Position numbers and translations under genes: made by a program. DNA of 64,000 nucleotides from an uncultured Eubacteriales bacterium. Its GTDB lineage: Bacteria; Bacillota; Clostridia; Christensenellales; DTU072. The notes beneath the pieces were generated by a model. That model saw only the letters and a program-made list of their open reading frames with translations, ran no database searches and was not told the DNA's origin. Shown piece by piece: positions 18,062 through 28,210 of the stretch. Numbering within the stretch: position 1 is the stretch's first letter; each line of letters starts with the position of its first letter. The stretch is taken from assembly GCA_949292905.1 (NCBI GenBank), contig CASFAV010000013.1, forward strand, positions 1-64,000, given 5' to 3'.

Positions 18062-21000
18062 TCAATCGTCGTATTCGTCCGGGGTGATGTCCTTCTTGCG
18101 GTCTTTGCTCTTACGCGCCGCCTGTATCTGTTTGTTTTCGATATCCACGGGCATCTTGCTCTCGACTTTGGTCTTTCTGAGCTTCTTGGAAACCTTGTCT
18201 TTGAGTTTTCTGTAAGAGAGTATCACGATGACCGCGATCAGAATCACGCCGATGACTACGGAAGAGACTATCAGCCATACCTGCGGATCGATCTCTTTAT
18301 CGCCGTCGCCTTCGTCTTTATCGCCTTCTCCGTCTTCGCCGTCGTCGCCGTCATCCTCGGGCGCGGCTTCGGTCTTATAGGTACCCGTTCTCACCGCGGA
18401 ACCGTTCTCGACGGCAGCCACTGCCGCGTCGTACTCGGTCGCGTCCTCGAGCTTGGTGATGGTCACGTCGTCTATGGCAAGCATACCTACCACGAAGTTC
18501 TCCACCTTCTCGTCCTCGCCCTGAGCGTCGTTGCTGCCGAGCGTGTAGTTGAGATAAATGCTGTGCGAAGAAGCGGATTCGTTATAGTAATAGAACGTGT
18601 ACTCGAGCATCGAGGTACCCGGATCGATATAAAGGGTTTCCCAATACCCGTTGGTATTGTCATACACGAGGCGGAATTCCGCTTTTGTGCCTTCGCTCGC
18701 GAGGAGCTTTGCCTTGAAGGTTATCTTGTAATACGAGGTGGCGCTCATCGAGAAGCTGGACGACTGATAATACTGTCCCGCGGCTTCCTGAACGTTGGCG
18801 AGCAGGAGGTACATATTGTTGCCTCTGTCGCCGAGGTTCTCGGTAAGGAAGCTTCTGACTTCGTCTTCGCCGAAATCGGCAAGCGCGTAGCCTTCGGAGC
18901 GGATATAGCTCACGAATGCGTCCTCTATCTTGGTCTTGTCGTAAACGCCGTATACGATGTTGGGTTCGTCGTCGGTACCCGACTCCGCGCCGCTCGCGTT
19001 ATGATGCGTGTAGGAAGCGGGAGTGTATCCGAGATAACTGCCGTCATCGGTCTCGTCTTCGTAATTGTCGAAAGAATCGGTGAAGTATTCGACGACTTTG
19101 AAGACGTAGTTGTTGGTGTAATATGAAGCGGTCTCTCCGCGGGAGCTCAGGCCGGTCGCCTCGTTCTCTCTCGCCTTGCGGATATCGGCTACGGTGAGTT
19201 CCGCCACGTCCTCAGCGGGAGTGTCGATGCCGTATTCGTCCTTGAGAAGGGTCGCTATCTCCTCCGCGGTGATCTCGTCCGCGTTGTCGATACCGTAAAC
19301 GAGCTTGTTGTACGCCGCTTCGTCCGCGAGTTTCACGAGCATGACGTCGTCGAAGTAAACGGTGCCGGAGCTTAAGCCGTAGGACACTTTCGTGGCGTCC
19401 TCGTCCGTGCCGAGAGCGTTCTCGGTCACGCCGTACTTATTGCCGAGATAGAGCTCTAGGTTAAGAGTCGCGGAAGACATGTTGGTGGCGATATAGAAGT
19501 CGTATCTCACCCACTTGCCCGCCGTATCGATATTGACGTATCCGACGTATTCGCCGTCTTCGGCGGCGTTGTAGTCGTCGTAATTCCTGTTGATGGTGAG
19601 CGCGTTGGAATTGTTGGCAAGAGTAACGCTCGCTTTGCCTCCGTCCGTCTTTACCCATACGCTCAGACGGTAATATGAATTCGCGCTCAGAGTGGAGCTC
19701 GCGCTCTTGTATCCGAAATAGGTCTCGAAAGCGCTCGTGATCATGAGAAGGTTCTTCGACGAAGTGGAACGGTACGCCATCGAATCCCCCGCTCCGAAAT
19801 AGAACGCATTGCGCTCGTCGTCGGTAAGACCGGTATACTTCTCGTAATTGATGACGCCCGCTTCCGCCGATCCGAAGATAGCCTCCGCTTCCGCTTCGTT
19901 GGCGGTATCTCTTACGTACTGCTCCGTTCCGGTCACGCCGCTGACGGACTTCGTGGTGCTCGCCGCGGAGGTGTATATCTTACCGTTCACTTCCGCTACC
20001 GCGCGTACATAATAAGAACGGTTGGCGGTGGCGGTGAAGGTGTATTTGACGTTATCGTCGTCTTCCACGCCTTCGGAAGCGAGTACTTTACCGACGAGAA
20101 CGCCGTCCTCGCGAGTGCCGTCCTCGTTCCTGAAGCCGTTCATATACACATAATAAGCGGTGACTTCGGGATTGACTCTGTTCCAGCTCAAAGTGGTGCC
20201 GGAAACGCTGACGCTGACCGCGCCGAGCGCGTTAGCAGCAGAAGTGCTCGTCCAGCTGGAAGGGCTCGACACGCCGACGATATTGCCTTCGGCGTCGAAT
20301 ATCTCTTCATCGTCGTCGGAATAGTTGCTGTCGGAGATGGAGGAGAAGTCGCCGTTGGTCACGGAGCTCGTGCTCGAAGAAGTTTCGGTAAGCGAGACCT
20401 TCTTCACGTAAGTGCCGCTCGAAGCGGTATTATATTCGGTATAATCGACCTCGGTGAAAGTGCACGCCGTGATCAACACCGTACCTTTGGTGTGGCTCGC
20501 GGGCGTGTAGATGTCGCCGGAACCGAATTCGAAATAGAGATACAGCTCTTTCGAGGTCGTCGCGCTGCCCTTGAAAAGGACAGAGACTTCGGTCCATTCC
20601 CCTACCGCTATGCTGCTGACGGCGGCGGAAGAATTCACGACGGCTTCGATCTCTTTGTCGTAAACGGAAACCTTGAAGGTGGAGCCGCTTGCGAGATCTA
20701 CGGTATTTACCCACATCGAAAGTCTGTAGAAATGATTGGGCTTGACGACCATGAAGTCGCCCGTGGGCATGAAGGTGAGCGTAGTCGCGGTGTAATCGTT
20801 GTGCCTCAGCATAACGACGTCGAATTTGTCCTCGCCTATCGCGAAGGTACCGGGCGCCGCCATACCGACGAGCGCGGGATCGGTGAATACCGTTCCGGTG
20901 TCGTAAGCGTAGGTGCCGCCTATCTTGCCTATCGTGACGAGCTCCGCGGAAGTCTTGTCGTCGACCATAGCGTAACGCCAGCCCTCGCCCTCTTTAGCCG

Positions 21001-23017
21001 CGTTTATGGCGGTGAATTCGGGAGAATCCGCTTCGGGTGTAAGTCCGAAGCCGGCGTAATCGGTCTCATAGAGGACGGAAAGCGGTTCGTACTCCGATTC
21101 GTCGTCCACTTCGGCGTATTCGTTGACGGTAAGGCTGTCGAAGAAGCAACCGCCGGGATAGAGAGTATCGTCGCCCCACTCGCCTTCGCCGTACCAGAAT
21201 TCGAGCTGAAGCTGTCTGTCGGCGAGTTCGTTACCTTTAACTTTGATGGTAAGTTGCTGCCAGCTTCCCCAGCTGCCGTCGCTCTGTTGTTCGAGTTTGG
21301 TATCGGTGGTAGCTCCCGAAAGACGGAAAGTAGCGTATACTTTTTCGTCCCCGTTGACGTACTGCATGTATTTGTTGTACTCGCTGAGCTCGTTTTCGTA
21401 AACTTCTTTCTCGTCGAGATACTTATCGTAAGCGTCGAGTTTTTCGTTATAAGTTTCGAGCGCGTTTTCGTACTCTTCGTCGGTGCCAAAATCATCTCTC
21501 TTGGGAGCTTCGCCGGGATCTTCGACTGCCTCGGGTTCTTCGGGAGCGTCGATAGCGGGTACCCAGATATATACCCAAACGGATACCTCGTAATATTTAT
21601 TGCTTTCGATTAAGAGATTATAATCGGATACGTATCCCGCGCCGCTGATCGCGTGATCGAGATGATAGATAAGAAGCGCTTTGCTGTCGAGAGGATTGGC
21701 GCCGTAAGTGAGGTTATACGCACCTGTCGTGGGATTATAGAAATCCTCTATCGCGGGAGCGGTAAACGTCGTGCAGAGTTTATTGAAAGTGTCTGTCGGA
21801 ACGAGGTTGTTGTCGTCGTCCTTTTCGAAGCTGTAAAGTTTCGACATATCGAATATTCCCCTCGGATCGGAGGAATAGGATTGATAACTGTTGCTGATGG
21901 TGGTGTAGTCCGGGAAATCTTCGTCGTCCTCAAGCCCTTCTTTGCCGAGCACCCAGGTGTAATTGGCGGAATCGCCGACTTTGGCGGTGTAATAAGGCTT
22001 GATATAAGAAGTATTGGTGGTGCCCGCGTCGTAAGGTCTGTACGCGGTGAAGTTTACGTCGGGATAGACGAGGCTGACGACGGTCTGTCTGCCTACGTTG
22101 ACGTTGAGCGCGCGGGAGATATCGGTGCTCTCGCGGGCGGCTTCGGGGCAGAGCGCCTCGAAATTCTCGGTAAGCGCCGCTTCGTACTCGGCGCATACGC
22201 CGTTATCCGTAGCGAGTTCGGTGAGCACTACGTTATCGAACATTACGGTACCTTTGGCGAGATAGGGATTGATTTTGGTTTTGCCGCTTTCGTCGTAAAG
22301 GGTGGAGGGTCCGTGTCCGAGCCAGAGCTGTATGCTTATGGTCCTGTCCTCGTAGTTGTTTCCTTCGAGGTATATCTCGTAGGTCTGCCAGCGCTGTTCG
22401 GTATTGATCGAAAGGTATTCGACGTACACGTCGTCCCCTATCACGAGGGCAGCGCCGCGCTTGGACATGTCGGTGTCGTTCTCGTCAAAAATAAGGTCCG
22501 TCCAGACGTCTATCGTGAGTTTATAATATTTACCCTTGGACACGGTAGCCGTCTTGCTCGCGGAATAGAATATCGAACCGTACTTTTCGTCGGCGGACAT
22601 GGAGATCACGAGCGCGTTGGTATCGGCATATTCTCCGCCCTCTTTCTTGGGGGTGTTGGGTGCGATCCCGGGATATACGACGAGCTGCGTGTTGATGGCG
22701 TTCTTGTTGGTCGAGAAAATACTTTCGTTGAGATCGACTACGCCGTATACGAGATTCGCGGCGGTATTTTTCCAGGAGCCGTCGTCGGTGGCGATGCTCC
22801 AACCGGTAACGTTGGTCTTGACGTAAGCGCTGCTCGCGCCGGTAGCGGTAGCGAAAGTACCGTTGTTTATCGCGGCGGTATCGGTCGCGGTCTCGGTCGA
22901 CTCGTCGTCGGTCCCTTCGTCGGGATCGGCGGGCGGTTCGCAAGCCACGGCTATGATCACGCAGAAGATCAACAACGCCGCTAAAAGTGTGTACAGGAAT
23001 TTCCTTGATTTTTTCAT
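18062..23017 (-). CDS. Very large modular surface protein (1651 residues)
   Basis: No named family is recognised. The N-terminus is a signal sequence ending AVAC, so C26 may be lipidated; the lipobox is imperfect because Ala is at -3. Five similar modules of about 200 residues resemble carbohydrate-binding beta-sandwiches. Each has a YY+LSVWV-like strand (about 162, 475, 762, 1112, 1427) and ends in a GTVxFDDVxLxxL-like strand (about 255, 623, 845, 1219, 1508). A fibronectin type III-like domain lies at about 922-1025. Module 2 is split by an acidic helical insert (about 486-550). An Asp/Glu-rich linker (1552-1578), a membrane helix (about 1579-1600) and a basic 50-residue tail end the protein. 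It is probably a polysaccharide-binding or adhesive surface protein. Confidence 0.85.
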   Translation of the reverse strand: MKKSRKFLYTLLAALLIFCVIIAVACEPPADPDEGTDDESTETATDTAAINNGTFATATGASSAYVKTNVTGWSIATDDGSWKNTAANLVYGVVDLNESIFSTNKNAINTQLVVYPGIAPNTPKKEGGEYADTNALVISMSADEKYGSIFYSASKTATVSKGKYYKLTIDVWTDLIFDENDTDMSKRGAALVIGDDVYVEYLSINTEQRWQTYEIYLEGNNYEDRTISIQLWLGHGPSTLYDESGKTKINPYLAKGTVMFDNVVLTELATDNGVCAEYEAALTENFEALCPEAARESTDISRALNVNVGRQTVVSLVYPDVNFTAYRPYDAGTTNTSYIKPYYTAKVGDSANYTWVLGKEGLEDDEDFPDYTTISNSYQSYSSDPRGIFDMSKLYSFEKDDDNNLVPTDTFNKLCTTFTAPAIEDFYNPTTGAYNLTYGANPLDSKALLIYHLDHAISGAGYVSDYNLLIESNKYYEVSVWVYIWVPAIDAPEEPEAVEDPGEAPKRDDFGTDEEYENALETYNEKLDAYDKYLDEKEVYENELSEYNKYMQYVNGDEKVYATFRLSGATTDTKLEQQSDGSWGSWQQLTIKVKGNELADRQLQLEFWYGEGEWGDDTLYPGGCFFDSLTVNEYAEVDDESEYEPLSVLYETDYAGFGLTPEADSPEFTAINAAKEGEGWRYAMVDDKTSAELVTIGKIGGTYAYDTGTVFTDPALVGMAAPGTFAIGEDKFDVVMLRHNDYTATTLTFMPTGDFMVVKPNHFYRLSMWVNTVDLASGSTFKVSVYDKEIEAVVNSSAAVSSIAVGEWTEVSVLFKGSATTSKELYLYFEFGSGDIYTPASHTKGTVLITACTFTEVDYTEYNTASSGTYVKKVSLTETSSSTSSVTNGDFSSISDSNYSDDDEEIFDAEGNIVGVSSPSSWTSTSAANALGAVSVSVSGTTLSWNRVNPEVTAYYVYMNGFRNEDGTREDGVLVGKVLASEGVEDDDNVKYTFTATANRSYYVRAVAEVNGKIYTSAASTTKSVSGVTGTEQYVRDTANEAEAEAIFGSAEAGVINYEKYTGLTDDERNAFYFGAGDSMAYRSTSSKNLLMITSAFETYFGYKSASSTLSANSYYRLSVWVKTDGGKASVTLANNSNALTINRNYDDYNAAEDGEYVGYVNIDTAGKWVRYDFYIATNMSSATLNLELYLGNKYGVTENALGTDEDATKVSYGLSSGTVYFDDVMLVKLADEAAYNKLVYGIDNADEITAEEIATLLKDEYGIDTPAEDVAELTVADIRKARENEATGLSSRGETASYYTNNYVFKVVEYFTDSFDNYEDETDDGSYLGYTPASYTHHNASGAESGTDDEPNIVYGVYDKTKIEDAFVSYIRSEGYALADFGEDEVRSFLTENLGDRGNNMYLLLANVQEAAGQYYQSSSFSMSATSYYKITFKAKLLASEGTKAEFRLVYDNTNGYWETLYIDPGTSMLEYTFYYYNESASSHSIYLNYTLGSNDAQGEDEKVENFVVGMLAIDDVTITKLEDATEYDAAVAAVENGSAVRTGTYKTEAAPEDDGDDGEDGEGDKDEGDGDKEIDPQVWLIVSSVVIGVILIAVIVILSYRKLKDKVSKKLRKTKVESKMPVDIENKQIQAARKSKDRKKDITPDEYDD

Positions 23018-26323: not shown

Positions 26324-26956
26324 TCAGCCTTTCTTCTCCGCGTCAGCGGCGGAAGTATCCGCGCCGCCCGACGCTTTGTGACCTACGGAAGCCCTGTCGC
26401 CGTCGAGAAATCCGTCTTTGAAAACGTATTTCGCAAGCGGGTAATACATGAGGCAGGTAAGCACAATATTTATCGCCATGATTATCGATTGCGTGGCTAT
26501 CCTGCCCGCGAGGTAGACGAAATAAGTTTTCGCTCCGCGAATGTAATAAAACCAGATGCCGAAAGTATTCACGCCGCACATGCACACGACGAAAACGATA
26601 GCATAGGCGATGAGTATTTTGACTATAGGCGGCAATTTGGGGATCTTGTGCACGAGCCCCGGGATCACGCCGAGCAGCACAGAGCCGAGAGTAATGAAGA
26701 TATTGAAAGCGCCTCCCGACGAATTGATGAGCCAGCCGAGAATATCGCCCACTCCTCCCGCTATACCGCCGCATACCGGACCCAGAAAAGCTCCCGCGAG
26801 CGCGCACACGAGATAACTGAACGATATAGCGTTACTGCTCGCGCCCATGAACGGGAGATAGACGGTAAAGCTGTTGGCGATGACCGCTAAAGCCGCGAAA
26901 AGCGCAGTATACGCTATCCGCTTGACGGAAAAGTACCTTTTGAGACGGTAACCCAT
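26324..26956 (-). CDS. folT: Folate-family ECF transporter substrate-binding subunit (FolT-like)
   Basis: Substrate-capture (S) component of an energy-coupling-factor vitamin transporter, 210 residues with about six helices. FSVKRIAYTALFAALAVIANSF and YLVCALAGAFLGPVCGGIAGGVGDILGWLI are typical of the group. Folate is assigned because a tetrahydrofolate riboswitch lies in the leader. The ATG at 26956 is preferred over a GTG 14 codons earlier, since the earlier codon lies inside the leader hairpins. The AAGGA ribosome-binding site is buried in a hairpin. The shared ECF ATPases and T subunit are not in the window. Confidence 0.88.
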   Translation of the reverse strand: MGYRLKRYFSVKRIAYTALFAALAVIANSFTVYLPFMGASSNAISFSYLVCALAGAFLGPVCGGIAGGVGDILGWLINSSGGAFNIFITLGSVLLGVIPGLVHKIPKLPPIVKILIAYAIVFVVCMCGVNTFGIWFYYIRGAKTYFVYLAGRIATQSIIMAINIVLTCLMYYPLAKYVFKDGFLDGDRASVGHKASGGADTSAADAEKKG

Positions 26957-26980
26957 AAAAAAAGTCCTTCTGCAAAGAAC
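26957..26980 (-). terminator. Expression-platform hairpin of the folT riboswitch
   Basis: On the minus strand GTTCTT-TGCAG-AAGGAC forms a 6-bp hairpin (26964-26980) followed by seven T residues (26957-26963), and the next base is the A of the folT ATG. The 3' arm contains the AAGGA ribosome-binding site. It could act as an intrinsic terminator or by hiding the ribosome-binding site. A second small hairpin (26989-27004) shares bases with the end of the riboswitch P1 stem. Confidence 0.7.
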
Positions 26981-27005
26981 CCATCGAAAAATAGTCACCT
27001 ATTTA

Positions 27006-27104
27006 TGCAACGGACGCGGCGCATTACCGCAGGTAATAACTTACCTTTCGTCCGCAAACGACATCCCATTCTGCGGCACTTAACGCAATACGCCTACTCT
27101 GCAT
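27006..27104 (-). ncRNA. Tetrahydrofolate (THF) riboswitch
   Basis: The minus-strand leader matches the class-I THF riboswitch from memory at its conserved blocks, in order: AGAGTAG, GCGTTAAGTG, GAATGGGATGTCG, ACGAA, GCGGTAAT and TCCG near the 3' end. The closing P1 stem is ATGCA/TGCAT. The downstream gene is a folate-type ECF transporter, the usual target. Binding of reduced folate should lower expression of the transporter. Confidence 0.93.
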
Positions 27105-27119
27105 TTATTTGATGGATAT

Positions 27120-27148
27120 ATCATATCACCTCCGGAAGCGATAATCAA
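27120..27148 (-). promoter_or_regulatory. folT promoter
   Basis: TTGATT (27143-27148), 17-base spacer, TATGAT (27120-27125) with an extended -10 TG. Predicted +1 near 27113, nine bases before the riboswitch starts. It lies only a few bases past the stop of the upstream DUF4363 gene, and no terminator separates them. Confidence 0.75.
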
Positions 27149-27154
27149 GGCTTT

Positions 27155-27529
27155 TCAGATAATATTTCCTATCCGCAAAGCGTACATGTCCTCGAATTCC
27201 TCTCCGGTCTGCCTTATCCTGTTGAGCAGCGCCTGCGCCGAATCGAAATCCTCCGCCGCCACGGCGCCCACGAGCTCGCCGTAGGTTATCGAAATTTCTA
27301 TAAGCTGGTTGTGCGGAAGGAACAATTCGAGGTATTTATGACGTTTTTCCCACCACTCCTGCGTCTCTTTGATCTGCTTGAGGTCGTAGGTTTCGTCCTC
27401 CTCCACGATAAAGGAGTCGAGCCTCGAATTGAGTTCCTCGAAAGTGGTCTTGATGAATATCTGTTCGAATACTCCGAGCCCTAATATCAGTGCGAGCGTA
27501 ACGACTACGGCGGCGACTTTGTATTTCAT
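27155..27529 (-). CDS. DUF4363 family protein
   Basis: A 124-residue protein with an N-terminal membrane helix or uncleaved signal (about 4-22) and a helical extracytoplasmic domain (TYDLKQIKETQEWWEKRHKYLELFLPHNQLIEI). This matches DUF4363, a family usually encoded beside DUF421 proteins, as here (12-base gap). The function is unknown. The start follows a GGGGGGAAGGA purine run that can serve as ribosome-binding site. Confidence 0.8.
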   Translation of the reverse strand: MKYKVAAVVVTLALILGLGVFEQIFIKTTFEELNSRLDSFIVEEDETYDLKQIKETQEWWEKRHKYLELFLPHNQLIEISITYGELVGAVAAEDFDSAQALLNRIRQTGEEFEDMYALRIGNII

Positions 27530-27541
27530 TCCTTCCCCCCT

Positions 27542-28210
27542 TTAAGCGCTTACCGCGACGTTTTCCGCGATATACTTTTTGCCGCGCGGCTGAAGATACA
27601 CGCGTTCCTTGTCAAGCGTTAAAAGCACCACTTCCTTCATTTTGAGCCCCTTATTCTTGACGTAATCCTCGACGAACGCCTTGTCCACGCCCGCGGGCTT
27701 GAAATTGGTCTCCATGAGTCTGCCTTCCACCACGAGGGTAACGGGCACGCCGCTCGGCGCGGGCGCCTCGTCGTTGGCGAGTATGGAGACGTTGCCGTTC
27801 GTCTCGCAAACGGCGAATTTGACCTGTTCGACAGAAAAAAACTGCTGACTTCTGAGGCTCTCGAGAAGGTCGTTCACGGTGATATTAAGCTTCGCCATGG
27901 ACTCCGAATCGATGCCGTCGGAATTTATGATGATAACGGGTTTTCCGTTGAGGAGCCTGCGGAATTTGATCGATTTCGTGGCAAAAAGCGTGAAAAAGAA
28001 GTGTAACAGGAACATTACGAACAGCGGCACTATGCCGTAGACGAGCGGCACGGCTATATCCTGCATGGGCATGCAGGCAACGTCCGCCACGGCGAGAGTT
28101 ACGACGAACTCGAAGGGCTGAAGCTCGCCTATCGTGCGCTTGCCCATAAGGCGCAAGCCCACGAGAAGACAAAGATATATGATTATCGTCCTGACAAATA
28201 CCACAAGCAT
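27542..28210 (-). CDS. DUF421 (YetF-like) membrane protein
   Basis: A 222-residue protein with three N-terminal membrane helices and a cytoplasmic C-terminal domain. RTIIIYLCLLVGLRLMGKRTIGELQPFEFVVTLAVADVACMPM is the family signature, and KPVIIINSDGIDSESMAKLNITVNDLLESLRSQ is the conserved start of the soluble domain. DUF421 proteins (YetF, YdfR, YrbG in Bacillus) have no firm biochemical role, though a link to spore or membrane physiology has been proposed. No ribosome-binding site is present and the promoter predicts +1 on the ATG. Confidence 0.88.
   Translation of the reverse strand: MLVVFVRTIIIYLCLLVGLRLMGKRTIGELQPFEFVVTLAVADVACMPMQDIAVPLVYGIVPLFVMFLLHFFFTLFATKSIKFRRLLNGKPVIIINSDGIDSESMAKLNITVNDLLESLRSQQFFSVEQVKFAVCETNGNVSILANDEAPAPSGVPVTLVVEGRLMETNFKPAGVDKAFVEDYVKNKGLKMKEVVLLTLDKERVYLQPRGKKYIAENVAVSA

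Follow-up and report, generated by a model that had tools for sequence, protein, structure and literature searches.

A THF-I riboswitch upstream of folT with a candidate exchange of pairing between P1 and the expression platform

The minus strand of the 64-kb stretch of DNA analyzed here, referred to as the window, carries a folate-uptake gene preceded by a riboswitch aptamer and, farther upstream, by a promoter-like site:

26324–26956, minus strand: folT, folate-family ECF transporter S component, 210 aa (TIGR04518, PF07155, PF12822)
27006–27103, minus strand: THF-I riboswitch aptamer (RF01831), full length by covariance model
27120–27148, minus strand: promoter-like -35/-10 site (TTGATT, 17 nt, TATGAT), from a consensus scan

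An Rfam scan matched RF01831 on the minus strand from 27103 to 27006 with 77.9 bits (gathering cut-off 36) over model positions 1–99 of 99, and the E value of 3.2e-16 rules out a chance match. The protein encoded downstream, read from the ATG at 26956–26954, matched TIGR04518 at 80.3 bits (cut-off 60), as well as PF07155 (50.9 bits) and PF12822 (44.1 bits), and this ATG lies 49 nt from the aptamer on the same strand. A THF riboswitch before folT had been claimed in the first-pass annotation, and the covariance-model search of the leader for the THF family, with its complete match above the cut-off, together with the TIGR04518 score, confirmed that the element is a genuine THF-I riboswitch ahead of the folate-uptake gene folT. 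The aptamer was the sole Rfam element in the window at gathering thresholds and the single RF01831 element in the whole genome, with no second THF element found in the 1.95-Mb search. The window shares the full aptamer, the folT target, and the GAGUA junction with the THF-I class (RF01831), and its aptamer shows no visible difference from it. The THF-I riboswitch was reportedly the subject of papers by Ames et al. in 2010 and Trausch et al. in 2011. The THF-II riboswitch, according to passages of PMC6800512 and PMC9881143, has reduced-folate sensing and hiding of the Shine–Dalgarno sequence (SD) in common with this element but uses another aptamer, has the SD within its P1, and stands before folE in Rhizobiales.

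The promoter-like site agrees with the consensus at 9 of 12 positions, has a TG before the -10, and ends on its outer side at 27148, which is also where the first-pass annotation ended; alone it is weak evidence, since 1 such site was found in 2 kb against 2.0 expected by chance. By eye, TTGAC...TATAAT-like sites were present just 5′ of the aptamer in several relatives. Directly upstream of the riboswitch on the minus strand (27155–28210) are a DUF4363 gene and a DUF421/YetF gene. Elsewhere on the minus strand (18062–23017) is a gene for a 1651-aa protein that, as judged by eye, begins like a lipoprotein and has a hydrophobic segment at its C terminus; it had no NCBIfam match at E 0.001.

Searches of the genome found neither DHPS (TIGR01496), a profile found in 13 of 14 control genomes, nor FolE (TIGR00063), found in 11 of 14, while DHFR and an ECF T component were present and a FolC-like match fell below the cut-off. 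From the absence of DHPS and FolE in this search, the bacterium probably imports folate as its supply and is likely a folate auxotroph, and with folate probably imported, a switch that turns folT off in response to reduced folate makes sense. The riboswitch is thus a likely control point of folate supply for a bacterium in which DHPS and FolE were not detected.

Between the aptamer and the start codon, the leader runs through the AAAUAG-GUGA-CUAUUU hairpin, GGGUUCUUUGCAGAAGGAC, and seven U residues to the AUG, and contains the following elements:

26989–27004, minus strand: linker hairpin AAAUAG-GUGA-CUAUUU directly 3′ of P1, predicted at -2.7 kcal/mol
26963–26981, minus strand: SD-sequestering or terminator-like hairpin GGUUCUUU-GCA-GAAGGACU, from folding and relatives
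26965–26970, minus strand: Shine–Dalgarno GAAGGA in the 3′ arm of the hairpin, from sequence
26957–26963, minus strand: seven-U tract, also the spacer between SD and start, from sequence and enrichment

The SD hairpin, with arms GGUUCUUU and GAAGGACU around a GCA loop, has a predicted stem of 7–9 bp, counting G-U pairs and the first U residues, with an energy of -3.4 kcal/mol for the 7-bp core and -5.7 kcal/mol for 8 bp, and most relatives read show the same architecture. The SD has a longest run of 5 when scanned against AAGGAGGT, and the seven-U tract abuts the folT start codon. The 8-bp stem leaves a gap of 6 nt to the AUG, and the start codon thus lies less than 10 nt from the hairpin. An earlier count of 6 bp for this hairpin was fair, and the SD in the 3′ arm, the seven U residues, and the ATG that were placed after it are all present. 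In the minimum-free-energy fold, GGUGACU (26999–26993) pairs with GGUUACC (26953–26947) just inside folT; this pairing would enclose both the SD hairpin and the AUG and is a possible extra lock on the OFF state.

The U tract was compared with the rest of the genome and with related leaders. The genome sample comprised 441 kb, i.e., the window and 20 further stretches; a simple ORF rule predicted 384 genes in it, and 199 of these had an SD run of 5 or longer. U runs of at least 5 within the 9 nt preceding the start codon were found in just 3 of these 199 SD-bearing genes, folT among them and the only one with seven U. The aptamer was found in 37 of 40 genomes of the family, the window genome included, and all 37 leaders were read; in the order, 168 of 297 genomes were positive and 88 further leaders were read from 87 genomes. 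A U run of at least 5 preceded the start in 34 of the 37 leaders of the same family and in 94 of all 125 THF leaders read across the order, a count that includes two leaders with doubtful starts (L097, L111) and comes from an order sample biased to higher-scoring matches, with related leaders not independent of one another. In L026 and L034, the U tract continues into an inferred UUG start. Set against 3 of 199, these counts make the U tract look like a kept feature of THF leaders and not a genome-wide habit. An Rfam search of 14 of the 20 further stretches (280 kb) gave 6 matches, all tRNAs, so that the sample offered no riboswitch of the same design for comparison.

The THF class is said to have been described in 2010, after the survey of Barrick and Breaker in 2007. 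Passages of that survey (Barrick & Breaker 2007, PMC2258182) describe terminators so near the gene that the hairpin carries the ribosome-binding site on its 3′ side, and assign such riboswitches to "dual transcription and translation attenuation". As far as these passages define the platform (PMC2258182), the leader in the window has the same position of the ribosome-binding site and a start no more than 10 nt away, but differs in that its U tract is itself the spacer between SD and start, touching the AUG, and in that its stem is weaker than a GC-rich terminator. Many f1 relatives fold into stronger stems followed by U5–8, and because strong stems with U tracts are common among them, the clade as a whole probably relies on dual action; on these predicted folds, dual action is plausible for the leader in the window, where the weak stem with its two G-C pairs may terminate transcription. 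A THF riboswitch before folT with one hairpin able to end transcription, to hide the SD, or both is supported by the covariance-model match, by the protein family of FolT, and by comparison of the 125 leaders, in line with the earlier suggestion. The design is a known type of switch, and the kinds of riboswitch known stay as they were.

Control at a single level was weighed on the same evidence. If the switch acted on translation only, the hairpin would hide the SD, its stem would be too weak to terminate, and the U tract would be an unstructured spacer. The two G-C pairs and the energies of -3.4 (7-bp core) and -5.7 kcal/mol (8 bp) are consistent with this, as is a terminator scan that did not flag the hairpin because three G-C pairs were required, and passages of PMC9881143 have THF-II, the other folate class, acting through the ribosome-binding site; the rarity of U runs before SD-bearing genes (3 of 199, folT included) against 34 of 37 THF leaders of the family, and the stronger stems with U5–8 in many f1 relatives, argue against it and leave this reading unlikely. 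A switch acting on transcription only, in which the hairpin serves as an intrinsic terminator and the shortness of the leader alone has placed the SD in its 3′ arm, would account for the enrichment of the U tract in THF leaders, and passages of Barrick & Breaker (PMC2258182) give transcription attenuation as dominant in Firmicutes. However, because the predicted hairpin pairs the SD, read-through RNA would be translated poorly as well unless it refolded, and we consider a transcription-only switch the least probable of the readings.

A small hairpin sharing bases with P1 had been put forward in the first-pass annotation as a possible switch. The idea was right in spirit, but the AAAUAG/CUAUUU hairpin adjoins P1 and shares no bases with it in the Rfam structure, and it was therefore set aside as the main switch. 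AAAUAG...CUAUUU is retained with variable inserts in L019, L020, L023, L025, and L030. In three of these, from one genus (L023, L025, and L030), roughly 65–100 nt are inserted in the linker between AAAAAUAG and CUAUUU, with both half-sites flanking the insert, as well as the platform, conserved.

P1 does share bases with two alternative helices, here called A and B, each pairing one P1 strand and its junction with the platform, and these rank above the AAAUAG/CUAUUU hairpin as the best candidates for the switching helices. Their strands are:

27097–27103, minus strand: UGCAGAG, P1 5′ strand plus the GAG of J1/2 GAGUA, proposed strand of helix A (from pairing and other families)
26971–26977, minus strand: CUUUGCA, platform strand of helix A, overlapping the 5′ arm and loop of the SD hairpin (from folding)
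27008–27014, minus strand: UCCGUUG, J2/1 plus P1 3′ strand, proposed strand of helix B (from the constrained ON fold)
26980–26986, minus strand: CGAUGGG, platform strand of helix B, a CAAUGGAC-type motif in relatives (from folding and relatives)

Helix A joins 27103–27097 to 26977–26971 in 7 bp with one G-U. Constrained folding predicted two mutually exclusive states, with -53.3 kcal/mol for the OFF state (P1 plus the SD hairpin) and -52.1 kcal/mol for the ON state, approximately 1.2 kcal/mol apart, and in the ON fold only helix A was imposed, with helix B arising unimposed. The predicted probability that 26970–26964 is unpaired was 0.54–0.79 in the ON fold against 0–0.23 with P1 imposed. With nothing imposed it was mostly 0.10–0.30, and the OFF hairpin is therefore predicted to be favored by default.

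Taken together, the best explanation for the locus as a whole is that the THF-I riboswitch is an OFF switch on folT working through an exchange of pairing between P1 and the platform, to which we assign a probability of about 0.65. With reduced folate bound, J1/2 and L3 would form the pseudoknot, P1 (UGCAG/UUGCA) would close, and the 5′ arm of the platform would fold back on the arm that holds the SD. RNA polymerase may then stop within the U tract, and any RNA escaping termination would remain closed to ribosomes. In the absence of ligand, the platform would invade P1, with CUUUGCA taking the P1 5′ strand and the junction GAG to form helix A and CGAUGGG taking J2/1 and the P1 3′ strand to form helix B. 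Since the two helices would between them occupy the 5′ arm that the SD hairpin needs, the SD would be freed and FolT made. This gives a concrete two-state model for the THF-I class that ties bases of the ligand pocket to the switching step, and the clade allows aptamer and platform to be compared across genomes.

The U of GAGUA, adjoining the GAG of helix A, is presumably U7 by our own mapping to the structure numbering. Passages of PMC11477058 report that THF at the L3–J1/2 pseudoknot controls P1 stability and that U7 lies in a base tetrad with the ligand. The proposed switch would have in common with the strand-exchange riboswitches, as they appear in passages of PMC10907184, a P1 strand that takes part in two exclusive folds and a toehold beside the duplex; compared with that account, capture in the window would differ in taking both P1 strands and in having junction bases of the ligand pocket as its toehold, both proposed from the model. 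We do not claim that the P1–platform pairings are new to the literature.

Seen in the window alone, helix A is unremarkable, as 164 of 2000 platform shuffles reach 7 bp with G-U allowed, and comparison was therefore relied on. For comparisons of the P1 strands, the 125 leaders were reduced to 119 by dropping six duplicates (same P1 strand and last 42 nt), and to 117 in the aptamer-wide window scan and later tests by leaving out L097 and L111 with their doubtful starts; the starts of L033 and L087 were set by hand, and the P1 strand of L114 was misplaced. Across the 119 leaders, swapping P1 5′ strands gave no helix A as good as that with own strands in 2000 permutations, and J2/1 with the P1 3′ strand likewise paired better with its own platform in helix B (0 of 2000 swaps as good). 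Of the 125 leaders, 67 had a helix A with at least 6 contiguous pairs, G-U allowed, whereas shuffled platforms gave 41 on average and 51 at most; for seven contiguous pairs, the count was 31, with 15 on average and 22 at most after shuffling.

Changes at the junction point in the same direction. Nine aptamers, which come from three families (f17, f18, f20) and are not independent, have AAAG for AGAG, and CUUUG occurs in the last 42 nt before the start in 6 of these 9 but in 8 of 100 AGAG leaders (Fisher p 1.0e-4; 10 of the 119 leaders with other junctions excluded), whereas CUCUG occurs in 0 of 9 and 18 of 100, respectively. Over the whole platform, CUUUG was found in 8 of 9 AAAG and 12 of 100 AGAG leaders (p 2.7e-6), but the last-42-nt figures are preferred because in L103 and L108 CUUUG sits in the linker. 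The leader in the window is among the 8 AGAG leaders with CUUUG and pairs via one G-U. Full 7-bp Watson–Crick versions of helix A were found as UACAAAG/CUUUGUA (L090), UGCAAAG/CUUUGCA (L085), AGCAGAG/CUCUGCU (L062, L087), and GGCAGAG/CUCUGCC (L070); position 3 is also changed in L069, L071, and L115, and the outermost pair is frequently mismatched. For helix B in f17, GUCC faces GGAC in L083, L094, and L113 and GUUC faces GAAC in L090 and L104, with L076 as a wobble intermediate.

When the aptamer was scanned with a 9-nt window, the signal peaked at the two P1 strands (z -5.8 and -6.5), while interior segments were mostly near 0, the strongest at -2.8. In the control runs the P1 strands scored -5.4 and -6.2; reversing their letters brought z down to -1.9/-1.3 and -1.4, and swaps within GC-matched bins gave -4.9 and -5.6. 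When each of the 26 families was represented by a single leader, the P1 strands reached the 5% level in 162 and 127 of 200 draws, against 34 and 2 of 200 when reversed. It is this drop under letter reversal that speaks for the P1 strands.

These results are set against others that leave the comparative support for the switching helices real but not clean. Helix A had no advantage from own strands in f1, where 1139 of 2000 swaps did as well, or in f17 plus f20 (1129 of 2000). Its signal therefore arises between families, a level at which relatedness and composition can produce a similar pattern; 15 of the 37 f1 leaders have fewer than 6 contiguous helix A pairs, and helix B showed a weak own-strand advantage within f1 (69 of 2000). 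A control 9-nt segment upstream of the aptamer also scored (z -4.9, reversed -3.0, GC-binned swaps -4.3) and reached the 5% level in 195 of 200 one-per-family draws, or 156 of 200 reversed, indicating that part of the signal is relatedness or composition. With this control scoring and no advantage within f1 or f17 plus f20, a claim of clean covariation is ruled out.

In a further reading, the ON state would be plain loss of P1: helices A and B would reflect composition and relatedness, and the outcome would be decided by the kinetics of folding alone. The nearly equal score of the upstream control, the lack of own-strand advantage for helix A in these families, and the 164 of 2000 shuffles giving 7 bp all suit this account. 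It is made doubtful by the sharp fall of the reversed-letter controls for the P1 strands, by the AAAG/CUUUG exchange and the other compensations, and by a predicted ON fold that is nearly isoenergetic and frees the SD.

The P1–platform exchange may extend beyond the window. An order-wide capture of both P1 strands, with the GAG of J1/2 and GUCC of J2/1 as toeholds and one hairpin, its U tract doubling as the spacer between SD and start, acting on both polymerase and ribosome, is put forward tentatively and with the odds somewhat against it; with junction bases as toeholds, ligand binding would directly block invasion. Among 29 leaders with a helix A of 6–7 bp (f1, f6, f17, f20), the ON–OFF difference ranged from -15.1 to +10.0 kcal/mol (median -0.5), and the predicted switch is thus not balanced in every leader. 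Other families of the order may use mainly the P1 3′ strand, in which case the choice of strand changed in evolution. Platforms in f11, f16, f24, and f33 (e.g., L046, L099, L119, L045) carry GUAGC- or AUGUAGC-like motifs, for which the P1 3′ strand with its tail (GCUGCAU) is by eye a possible pairing partner and which suggest a 3′-strand design, although the best duplexes in leaders of this type are not always at the GUAGC-like site. In L109, L114, L118, L097, and L112 (f3, f6), GAAGU-type junctions (e.g., GGAAGUnGUA) replace GCAGAGUA, and these aptamers precede frames that read as folC-like by sequence, most with inferred UUG starts.
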